Source: Magnetospirillum sp. ME-1
Lineage (GTDB): Bacteria > Pseudomonadota > Alphaproteobacteria > Rhodospirillales > Magnetospirillaceae
Reading direction: 5' to 3'
NCBI RefSeq assembly: GCF_002105535.1
Contig: NZ_CP015848.1
Span: 930,907-994,906, forward strand
DNA: 64,000 nucleotides
Shown here: in pieces, positions 650 to 50,069 of the stretch
How positions within the stretch are numbered: the first letter of the stretch is position 1
Layout: the number at the start of each line of letters is the position of its first letter
Notes under the pieces: model-generated
What the model saw: the letters and a program-made list of their open reading frames with translations, nothing else
What the model was told of the DNA's origin: nothing
Database searches by the model: none
Translations under genes and position numbers: made by a program

Positions 650-677
650 TCCTCGGCGTGACATCCGACGAGAAAGG

Positions 678-709
678 GCGCGGTTCCGAAAGGGACCGCG
701 CTTTTTTTT
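678..709 (+). terminator. Rho-independent terminator of pnp
   Basis: A 10-bp stem (GCGCGGTTCC with GGGACCGCGC, one G-T pair) encloses a GAAA loop and is followed by eight T residues. It lies just downstream of pnp on the same strand. Confidence 0.93.
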
Positions 710-718
710 ACTCATAAT

Positions 719-819
719 GTCATCCCGAGCGATGAGCGAGGGATCTCCGCCTGGGCGAGCGTGTCAAAACCGGACAGGGCATGCCAGGATGAGATCCCTC
801 GCTCATCGCTCGGGATGAC
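719..819. repeat. Palindromic intergenic repeat, unit A (perfect 29-bp arms)
   Basis: Bases 719-747 and 791-819 are perfect inverted copies of a 29-mer that begins GTCATCCCGAGCGATGAGCG. They are separated by 43 bases. The same 29-mer occurs again, in the first orientation, at 1115-1143. Unit A belongs to a family with further copies near 27.3, 36.3, 36.9, 39.6 and 50.0 kb. The right arm contains the probable start codon of the GIY-YIG gene. Confidence 0.9.
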
Positions 820-1108
820 ACCGTTGCAGCGGCACTTCTACGTCTACATGCTCTCGAGCGTATCCGGCGTGCTGTATGTCGGCGTCACCAATGACCTGGC
901 TCGCAGGCTGCACGAGGATCGCAGCGGTATCGCGGATGGGTTCACCAAGCGCTATCATTGCCATCGGCTGGTCTGGTTCGAGATGACCGGCGATGTGAAC
1001 GCCGCCATAGCCCGGGAAAAGCAGATCAAAGGCTGGCGACGTTCCAAAAAGGAAGAGCTGATCCGTGAGATGAATCCCTCCTGGGCGGATTTGGCCCAGG
1101 ACTTCTGA
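815..1108 (+). CDS. Small GIY-YIG nuclease-domain protein
   Basis: This 97-residue protein is essentially one GIY-YIG domain of the short stand-alone type (COG2827-like). The GIY and YIG motifs appear as YVYML and LYVGVT, followed by the conserved arginine of RRLHE, the block [12 protein letters not shown] and the catalytic glutamate in [11 protein letters not shown]. Family members are metal-dependent DNA endonucleases or are uncharacterised. An in-frame ATG at 761 would add 18 residues ([10 protein letters not shown]) that merely translate the flanking repeat, so I prefer the ATG at 815, inside the repeat arm. The gene lies exactly between inverted identical 29-bp arms (791-819 and 1115-1143), which suggests a link between nuclease and repeat. 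The cellular role is unknown. Confidence 0.85.
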
Positions 1109-1114
1109 TCCCCT

Positions 1115-1143
1115 GTCATCCCGAGCGATGAGCGAGGGATCTC
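1115..1143. repeat. Third identical copy of the 29-bp repeat arm
   Basis: This copy matches bases 719-747 exactly and is inverted relative to 791-819. It begins six bases after the stop codon of the GIY-YIG gene and has no right-hand partner arm, so it is a half unit. It sits 47 bases before the msrB start. Confidence 0.9.
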
Positions 1144-1190
1144 CGCCCGGACCTGCGGTGCCGGTTCATACTTTGGCAAGGACAATAACC

Positions 1191-27306: not shown

Positions 27307-27410
27307 GTCATCCCGACGACCACCGGGAGGAGGGATCTCATCCTGCTCCGGCGGATATGATTCGGCGAAGCCGTGTCATGCGGAGATCCCTCGCAGACGC
27401 TCGGGATGAC
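27307..27410. repeat. Palindromic intergenic repeat, unit B
   Basis: This 104-base unit has the family arms GTCATCCCGA...GGGATCTC and GAGATCCCTCGC...CTCGGGATGAC. The left arm is partly altered (CGACGACCACCGGGAGGA). It lies eight bases beyond the recQ stop. Confidence 0.85.
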
Positions 27411-36311: not shown

Positions 36312-36415
36312 GTCATTCCGAGCGCATGCGAGGAATCTCATCCTGGACCGGCAGTGCCGATTCTGAAAAGCCGTTCCAGGATGAGATCCCTCCTCTCGTT
36401 GGTCGTCGGGATGAC
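36312..36415. repeat. Palindromic intergenic repeat, unit C
   Basis: This 104-base unit has arms GTCATTCCGAGCGCATGCGAGGAATCTC... and GAGATCCCTCCTCTCG...CGTCGGGATGAC. An inner inverted pair, TCCTGGA and TCCAGGA, lengthens the hairpin. It starts seven bases after the murU stop and could act as the end of that transcript. Confidence 0.85.
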
Positions 36416-36891: not shown

Positions 36892-36978
36892 GTCATCCTG
36901 AGGCGAAGCCGAAGGATCTTTCAGCCTGAGGCGGGAGCCGCCCATGCGTGAAAGACTCTTCGCGCTGCTCAGAGTGAC
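36892..36978. repeat. Palindromic intergenic repeat, unit D (divergent)
   Basis: This shorter unit of 87 bases begins GTCATCCTGAGGCGAAGCCG and ends in CTGCTCAGAGTGAC. The arms are clearly related to the family but contain several differences from each other. It lies between the MarR gene and the 3' end of the SRP RNA gene, which converge here. Confidence 0.75.
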
Positions 36979-39640: not shown

Positions 39641-39738
39641 GTCATCCCGAGCGTATGCGAGGGATCTCATCCTGGAACAGCACTCCAGGACCGGCACCGC
39701 CAGGCCGGACGGAGATCCTTCGCTGCGCTCAGGATGAC
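39641..39738. repeat. Palindromic intergenic repeat, unit E
   Basis: The 98-base unit begins GTCATCCCGAGCGTATGCGA and ends TTCGCTGCGCTCAGGATGAC. It lies between the converging helicase and pccR genes and stops 11 bases before the pccR stop codon. Confidence 0.85.
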
Positions 39739-49969: not shown

Positions 49970-50069
49970 GTCATCCCGAGCGAAGCCGAGGGATCTCGTC
50001 CTGGAACGGCATTACCGTTCCGGCACCGGTATTCCAGGCGGAGTTTCCTCGTCTGCGGCTCGGAATGAC
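49970..50069. repeat. Palindromic intergenic repeat, unit F
   Basis: The 100-base unit begins GTCATCCCGAGCGAAGCCGA and ends CTCGGAATGAC, with an inner inverted pair (CTGGAACGGC and its relatives). It lies between the ODP terminator and the stop of the phage scaffold-like gene, exactly where a capsid gene would be expected downstream of scaffold. Confidence 0.85.

Follow-up and report, generated by a model that had tools for sequence, protein, structure and literature searches.

Pairing of a small GIY-YIG nuclease with flanking palindromic repeats in Magnetospirillum and other bacteria, a possible counterpart of the RAYT/REP system

The REP/REPIN–RAYT system is the closest described relative, in layout, of the locus reported here. 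Its palindromes are short and imperfect, bear a short unpaired tag, are often arranged as inverted pairs, and occur in many, mostly intergenic copies; its enzyme, RAYT (TnpA-REP), is encoded by a gene flanked by matching palindromes, which are also dispersed in the genome as inverted pairs. RAYT is an HUH tyrosine transposase and the REP tag is GTAG. Here, we report a locus of Magnetospirillum sp. ME-1 that shares this arrangement of palindromes and enzyme gene, but its enzyme is a GIY-YIG nuclease of about 97 residues and its tag is GTC (TGTC).

GIY-YIG enzymes hydrolyse DNA; they do not join ends and form no covalent link with DNA, so that any mobility based on such an enzyme must rely on host repair. 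The same catalytic domain is found in homing endonucleases, e.g., I-TevI, which belong to the realm of selfish genetics. Unlike those, the gene described here shows no sign of an intron or intein and its product has no added DNA-binding domain; and where I-TevI-like enzymes have one long unique site, the target that we propose is a repeated hairpin. Single-domain GIY-YIG proteins of the UPF0213/COG2827 type (PDB IDs: 1zg2 and 1ywl) have the same fold and size as our protein, and both were deposited as hypothetical proteins.

Another class of palindromes, the CGTC REPs, was described by Di Nocera et al. 2013 (PMC3733652). According to that paper, they carry the tag CGTC, TGTC, or CCTC with AT at the first stem positions, have stems of 8–9 bp, loops of 4–5 and an unpaired tail that is mostly CCA, occur mostly as head-to-head dimers, and make up four families, with neisserial dRS3 and rickettsial RPE-4/RPE-6 among the members. 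It further states that these repeats “apparently lack a dedicated transposase”, a matter left to future work, that no tyrosine transposase gene was flanked by CGTC repeats, and that other transposase classes were associated with them only fortuitously. A paper that cites this work (PMC6006769) gives no match to the term GIY, and among the matches listed from open-access full text, preprints lying outside that corpus, no paper links GIY-YIG to such repeats, which does not prove absence.

The window, i.e., the whole stretch of DNA that was analysed, is 64,000 nt long, and the genome it comes from (4.55 Mb) is G000 in our panel; its features are collected in Table 1. A first-pass annotation had described three identical 29-base arms, with a 97-residue GIY-YIG gene lying between two of them, its start codon inside one arm and its stop six bases before the other, and all of this was borne out. 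The arm sequence, GTCATCCCGAGCGATGAGCGAGGGATCTC, is present in three copies with zero mismatches (mean of 0.00 in 100 shuffles), the ATG (815–817) lies within arm 2, and the TGA (1106–1108) is separated from arm 3 by six bases (1109–1114). Positions 719–819 form a complete inverted pair (unit 1) with its own spacer; arm 3 is the left arm of a truncated second pair (unit 2), as read from the complete unit 2 in the related genome G006. The order around the gene is arm(−)–gene–arm(+), and the tags at the feet of the arms are TGTC (718–721 and 1114–1117).

Table 1. Coordinates of the palindromic arms, the nuclease gene, and the units lacking a nuclease in the window
Feature	Position	Strand	Description
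Arm 1	719–747	+	left arm of unit 1; TGTC-tagged imperfect hairpin, tag 718–721
Arm 1 structure			5-bp foot stem ATCCC/GGGAT, tandem G-A mismatch, inner 2-bp stem, tail CTC
Spacer between arms of unit 1	748–790	none	43 bp
Arm 2	791–819	−	right arm of unit 1; contains nuclease start codon
GIY-YIG nuclease gene	815–1108	+	97 aa
Arm 3	1115–1143	+	left arm of unit 2; remainder of unit 2 lost in G000
Palindrome unit without nuclease	27307–27410		
Palindrome unit without nuclease	36312–36415		
Single arm	36892–36919	+	CCTGAG variant
Palindrome unit without nuclease	39641–39738		
Arm within degraded unit	49970–49996	+	

As a single strand, the 103 nt from 718 to 820 fold to −48.4 kcal/mol, compared with −18.3 in shuffles (z −10.0); the folding energy of a lone arm is unremarkable (z −0.6). 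In the fold of the lone arm, the 5-bp foot is followed by a tandem G-A mismatch and then by a 2-bp inner stem with a loop of 5 nt; the GTC tag stays unpaired. The TGTC tag and the AT at the first two stem positions are shared with CGTC REPs as defined in PMC3733652, but the short foot with tandem mismatches, the inner stem, and the CTC tail place the window arms outside the four families given there.

The exact arm, allowing for three or fewer mismatches over 25 bases, occurs at exactly three places in the whole G000 genome, all at this locus, and the idea of a dispersed exact-arm family was rejected, the exact arm being private to the locus. The wider family pattern, GTCATNCYGAG N4–30 RGNATCTC, is found at at least 131 places (64 + 67), and its reversed-pattern control at 0 places. 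Among the 100 family places listed there are 15 neighbour pairs less than 150 bp apart, all in + − order with the tags facing outward, 14 of them at a spacing of 70–72 and one at 56. The annotation had counted five other units without a nuclease in the window; all five were found, as pairs or single arms, and none bears a GIY-YIG gene. PF01541 has four matches in the G000 genome with just one inside the window; the others are L001, which is a second small gene, L002, which belongs to another subfamily, and a match in a frame of 636 residues that we read as UvrC. A different palindrome (GTCATTCCGGGCG...CCCGGAATCC) stands on either side of L001, and no palindrome was seen when the flanks of L002 were inspected by eye.

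The window protein matches the Pfam GIY-YIG family (PF01541) at E 2.3e-12 (47.5 bits against a cut-off of 22.6), and NCBIfam gave no match at E 0.01. Residues Y11, Y21, G23, R31, E68, and K72 are kept, among them the tyrosines, arginine, and glutamate that characterise GIY-YIG enzymes. Position 35, however, is D in the window copy alone, compared with H in 193 of the 195 aligned family proteins and Y in one, and the G006 ortholog keeps H. Because D replaces the conserved H35, the window copy may be impaired, and recently so, as judged from the alignment; intact relatives exist. A predicted model from a 20-row alignment has a mean pLDDT of 90.3. Sequence-profile matches among solved chains were the UPF0213 proteins 1zg2 and 1ywl, and the fold search with the model returned 1zg2 (UPF0213) at E 9e-5 and, as weak matches (E 0.04–0.08), the branched-DNA nuclease Slx1 and also 1ywl. 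A defence system (PADLOC, no match at E 0.01) and a phage origin (G006 ortholog, no tblastn match in phage records at E 1e-5) were considered and rejected.

An alignment of eleven nuclease proteins of the genus served as the query, and the best 80 of 561 confirmed candidates in a one-genome-per-species collection were taken as loci; these span Clostridia, Patescibacteria, Chloroflexi, Bacteroidota, Actinomycetota, proteobacteria, and others. PF01541 was also searched in 190 genomes of the window's class, with 30 + 80 loci taken from among the matches listed. The first 110 loci (80 + 30) included 109 with a tblastn match and 100 with enough flank on both sides. The best ungapped flank inverted repeat reached 12 or more in 70 of these 100 GIY-YIG loci compared with 16 of 300 in-locus controls (pairs of stretches 300 bp apart, taken from other parts of these loci), and 14 or more in 53 compared with 4. 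When an arm was defined by its grammar, i.e., GTC, an A-stem of 5 exact bases, a loop, and the returning stem', arms stood on both flanks in 45/100 loci versus 6/1000 control pairs, and on any flank in 68/100 versus 159/1000. The two bases after the second stem half, which detection did not use, were CC in 95 and CT in 83 of 188 arms (178/188). The flanks of ParE genes from the 190-genome panel gave 0/30 at ≥14 and 2/30 at ≥12, with arms on both flanks in 0/30 and on any flank in 2/30.

Enough flank was available for 103 of the 105 proteins in the class set; these were sorted into subfamilies, as crude bins, by regular expressions on the protein. The main subfamily (EH..GFTKRY) has 36/63 loci at ≥14 in the window's class, 39 with arms on any flank and 25 on both; the sister GIY-YIG subfamily YVGWT has 0/10 on every flank measure. 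The other bins gave, at ≥14, 2/6 (LYTGxS), 2/5 (SKYxPW), 0/2 (YTGI), and 9/17 (unassigned), and at least one protein of the LYTGxS bin, L289, falls by score with the main group. The genome-contig set has 37/72 at ≥14 with arms on any flank in 64, and the genus set 10/12 with arms in 11. All these rates are lower bounds because the arm detector is blind to other tags and mismatched stems (e.g., CTTCATCCTGAG... beside the RRPV-type subfamily), and loci without a GTCA arm often bear a palindrome of just this kind. The annotation had tied nuclease and palindromes together from a single locus; counted over many, the subfamily is flanked by such palindromes far above chance, and the pairing is general. 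One could still suppose that GIY-YIG genes happen to sit in intergenic stretches where palindromes are common; these are indeed abundant and mostly intergenic, and at least one arm turned up in 159 of the 1000 in-locus control pairs. Yet ParE genes and the sister subfamily of the same panel stand without them, arms on both flanks are far more frequent at the nuclease than in the controls, and hairpin class and nuclease share a phylogeny (see below), so chance is almost certainly not the explanation.

Arms stand on both flanks in 77 of the 195 loci, and 41 of the 77 have the outward-tag layout of the gene-less units (chi-square p 3e-7), i.e., arm(+)–gene–arm(−). Such terminal inverted repeats are shared with insertion sequences and MITEs; the order in the window, arm(−)–gene–arm(+), differs from it.

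The arms differ in geometry. Some have a 5-bp foot, G-A mismatches, and mostly the tail CT, others 8–9-bp stems, 4–5-nt loops, and mostly the tail CC, and there are intermediates. Many arms beside the other nuclease clade have the 8–9-bp stems, 4–5-nt loops, and tail CC. We compared hairpin class with the nuclease tree. The first labels were given partly by hand, once the arms had been viewed but before the tree existed, with 29 loci hand-listed (some unchanged), making one of four classes, and seven further loci unlabelled; on this hand-labelled tree (88 nucleases), 2 changes are required for the 36 rows of the G-A class against a shuffled mean of 28.1 (0/500 as low), and 17 for all four classes together against 44.0 (0/200 as low). 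An automatic label was then taken from stem length (≤6 or ≥7) by majority of the arms with tail CC/CT. The 202 loci gave 195 proteins past the length/stop filter, of which 126 have an arm and 121 were labelled; 5 ties and 69 loci without an arm were left out. These 121 loci require 7 changes, compared with 24.2 on average and never fewer than 15 in within-host shuffles (0/1000 as low), and the window's class alone (71 loci) requires 6 against 13.0, minimum 9 (0/1000 as low), the host groups in the shuffles taking the window's class as Alphaproteobacteria. Please note that the tree has 97 columns and is poorly resolved, with 4 of 117 inner branches starred, so single nodes are untrustworthy and it is the clustering that is the result. 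Hairpin type follows the nuclease clade, not the host, across phyla. Both sides of the tree are represented in G000, by one nuclease each, and either nuclease is accompanied by the hairpin class of its side.

Copy number was compared with nuclease presence. In the 17 genus genomes the palindrome pattern has 179 places in G000, 107 in G006, and 43 in G013, then 32, 29, 20 (G001), 18 (G004), 10, and 7, and 0–2 in the other eight. A full-length nuclease near that of the window (≥67% identity) is found in G000, G006, and G004, and the copy numbers of these three differ from those of the 14 without it (exact Mann–Whitney p 0.016); 10/17 genus genomes match the window protein, several of the matches being partial or distant. 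In the window's class, 17/190 genomes have at least 10 palindrome places. The top five counts (308, 190, 118, 73, and 72) all belong to genomes with a nuclease bearing short-foot arms. G202 (70 places) has broken or partial clade-profile matches plus one distant relative, and G018 (54) and G153 (44), genomes that are 81–83% complete, have partial clade-profile matches. Full-length clade-profile matches are present in G124, G139, G076, G107, and G162; short-foot arms were seen in G107, and the flanks of the other four, as far as viewed, are in some cases of the other class. G200 and G152 (11 places each) have distant nuclease relatives. No nuclease match was obtained by the clade profile in G105 (19 places) and G175 (20 places), and G013 has no full-length nuclease of the clade, just a 31-bit match. 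Genomes like G105 and G175 indicate that palindromes can outlast or lack the nuclease, and nuclease copies with stops occur among the matches. We also tried to call the clade in class genomes by nearest neighbour, but this call put more distant subfamilies into the clade of the window, which made it too noisy, and it was rejected; by it, ≥10 places are found in 7/20 assigned genomes (13/20 having fewer than 10) compared with 10/170 others, a modest association (Fisher p 5e-4, Mann–Whitney p 9e-4) in which G000 was entered by hand. As a separate observation, G139 has 13 PF01541 matches in one genome, of which 12 match the clade profile at E 0.001.

Could another enzyme, RAYT or some other transposase, move the palindromes, with the nuclease as a passenger? 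PF01797, the RAYT-type family, does match in 4/17 genus genomes, namely G001, G004, G013, and G014 (20, 18, 43, and 0 palindrome places), but the two genus genomes richest in palindromes, G000 (searched at E 0.001) and G006, have no match, and RAYT was rejected as the mobiliser in G000. What PMC3733652 states on tyrosine and other transposases points the same way, and on this and the PF01797 search we regard this account as highly improbable.

The nuclease might also be a homing-like parasite that inserts into palindromes of other origin, as some insertion sequences insert into REPs, without spreading them. This fits a gene that lies in or adjoins palindromes, empty counterparts that can keep a palindrome (described next), and palindromes in genomes lacking a full-length clade nuclease. 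It does not fit a hairpin class that tracks the nuclease clade through many phyla, nor the short-foot-arm nuclease in all five genomes with the highest counts of the 190, nor the outward-tag layout common to gene-bearing and gene-less forms; we consider such a parasite unlikely, though worth keeping in mind.

Sister sites with and without the gene, a comparison that the annotation had proposed, were found at pnp–msrB, at dnaB–alr, in Sphingobium, and in Sinorhizobium, so the gene is present or absent at orthologous sites. Between pnp and msrB, G006 has unit 1, the gene, and unit 2 with both arms, and G000 has the same except that unit 2 is a left arm only; G004 and, in degraded form, G013 have unit 2 without unit 1 or the gene; G010 has a unit of another palindrome family; and G001, G007, G011, G012, G015, and G016 have neither palindrome unit nor gene (the other six of the 17 genus genomes yielded no interval). 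The three arms at this place are mutually different in G006 and identical in G000, a sequence pattern that suggests arm conversion at the G000 locus. Arms 1 and 3 are direct repeats, which makes loss by recombination as possible as gain. It was also observed that this intergenic region (window 650–1190) carries different palindrome families in different species. Between dnaB and alr, G000 and G008 carry the gene with CCGGG-type palindromes, 14 other readable genomes are without it, and G014 gave no interval; in G001 a CCCGCG-type arm, with no GIY-YIG gene, was seen where G000 and G008 have the gene and the other palindrome type.

For the locus on Sphingobium plasmids, both sides are matched by 11 records, of which 7 are filled and cover the locus completely and 4 are without the gene. 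In the filled records (three of the 7 aligned) the gene lies between CGTCACCCCGGG... arms, and one filled record, TYG73, has a one-base gap in the nuclease gene. The empty TYG64 and TYG74 have a single hairpin tagged at both ends, as would be expected from either the left end of one arm joined to the right end of the other or an insertion target; the empty TYG72 and TYG65 have hairpins of other sequence with no GTC tag. The comparison of filled with empty records brings out an 8-bp stretch, ACCCCGGG, that the two arms have in common and that could be a target-site duplication or deletion homology. In Sinorhizobium there are three filled records, and the same place in S. meliloti Ak57 is an imperfect hairpin with CCTC-like tags at both ends. 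G101 carries the gene and its surrounding palindromes twice, at two places (94% alike over 427 bp), and the similarity between L043 and L048, which are at different sites in different species, starts at the CGTC tag. For filled and empty pairs on Rhizobium plasmids, the CIAT894 query matched itself and otherwise gave short matches only, most of them to an insertion sequence; with the R. tumorigenes query, eight records were obtained that cover most of it, and in each of them the gene is annotated.

These sites bear on a further alternative, a host housekeeping enzyme that trims palindrome hairpins or cruciforms in the manner of Slx1 or SbcCD, its gene being regulated by the adjoining palindromes. 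The start codon inside an arm and the weak structural likeness to Slx1 agree with it. Housekeeping is hard to reconcile, however, with the patchy distribution in the genus, with copies that have stops or a one-base gap, with 13 GIY-YIG matches in one genome, and with different sites in related species; we take it to be quite improbable.

From the linkage, the common arm grammar, the co-phylogeny, and the multi-copy dispersal, we consider it probable that gene and palindromes form one selfish genetic system, a RAYT/REP counterpart built on an unrelated enzyme, in which hairpin recognition, cleavage, and cleavage-driven spread are what we infer. In such a system, the lone GIY-YIG nuclease would recognise the palindrome class flanking its own gene, as a folded hairpin or cruciform, and would cleave it at the tagged foot (GTC / CY); host repair or recombination might then copy, convert, or remove the DNA between the arms, and cleavage would in this way drive palindrome spread. 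Pairs with the gene between or beside them would be the autonomous form, and the gene-less pairs, tens to hundreds per genome, the non-autonomous one. The annotation had likened the locus to REP/RAYT with a GIY-YIG enzyme in place of RAYT. The likeness holds in the linkage above chance, the sister sites, the palindrome type set by nuclease clade, and the lack of a RAYT/Y1 match in G000; it falters on the tens of palindromes without a full-length clade nuclease in G013, G175, and G105, at the sensitivity used. Also against the one-system reading are the two of four empty Sphingobium sites whose hairpin lacks the GTC tag, the modest copy-number association by nearest-neighbour assignment, and recombination between direct or inverted repeats, which could delete the gene without any nuclease.

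Mobile palindromes partnered by a lone GIY-YIG nuclease are not known to us, and none were found in print within the literature covered. In layout the proposed system resembles RAYT/REP, but it has neither the defining enzyme nor the tag of that family. Such short palindromic repeats are widespread in bacteria, dRS3 of Neisseria among them, and in a record of Neisseria gonorrhoeae, dRS3-like repeats flank a GIY-YIG relative on either side. For the enzyme that CGTC REPs apparently lack, the GIY-YIG family is a strong candidate. We lean, with reservation, towards the fuller proposal that a lone structure-specific GIY-YIG nuclease is the missing dedicated enzyme of CGTC/TGTC-type REPs (including neisserial dRS3 and related repeats of many phyla), which would be mobile through cleavage of their own hairpins and copying by host repair; two or more nuclease clades would each be paired with a hairpin geometry of their own. 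An enzyme of about 95–100 residues that can be cloned, with a matched hairpin substrate, makes the missing-transposase question directly testable. If true, this would be a new enzyme class among bacterial mobile elements and could explain many small GIY-YIG genes of unknown role that are scattered through genomes.

Several observations concern other GIY-YIG subfamilies. A second subfamily (SYYVG...GGYTxxRRPV) often stands beside palindromes tagged CTTCAT/CTCATCCTGAG... (L148, L150, L151, L234, L239, L242, L251–L253, and others) and is possibly a third nuclease–palindrome pairing. Members of the small SKYxPW subfamily (L157, L287, and L303) lie near CTTCGGCTCGGCAAGCC-type repeats. L256 and L257 in G094, of the palindrome-free YVGWT subfamily, are inverted copies that are 93% alike over 250 bp, and L256 starts directly after a sequence that by eye resembles a tRNA 3' end. 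A defence region on a Planktothrix agardhii plasmid (L342) contains a palindrome-flanked GIY-YIG gene, with an MmeI-type restriction enzyme on one side and DISARM drmA on the other.
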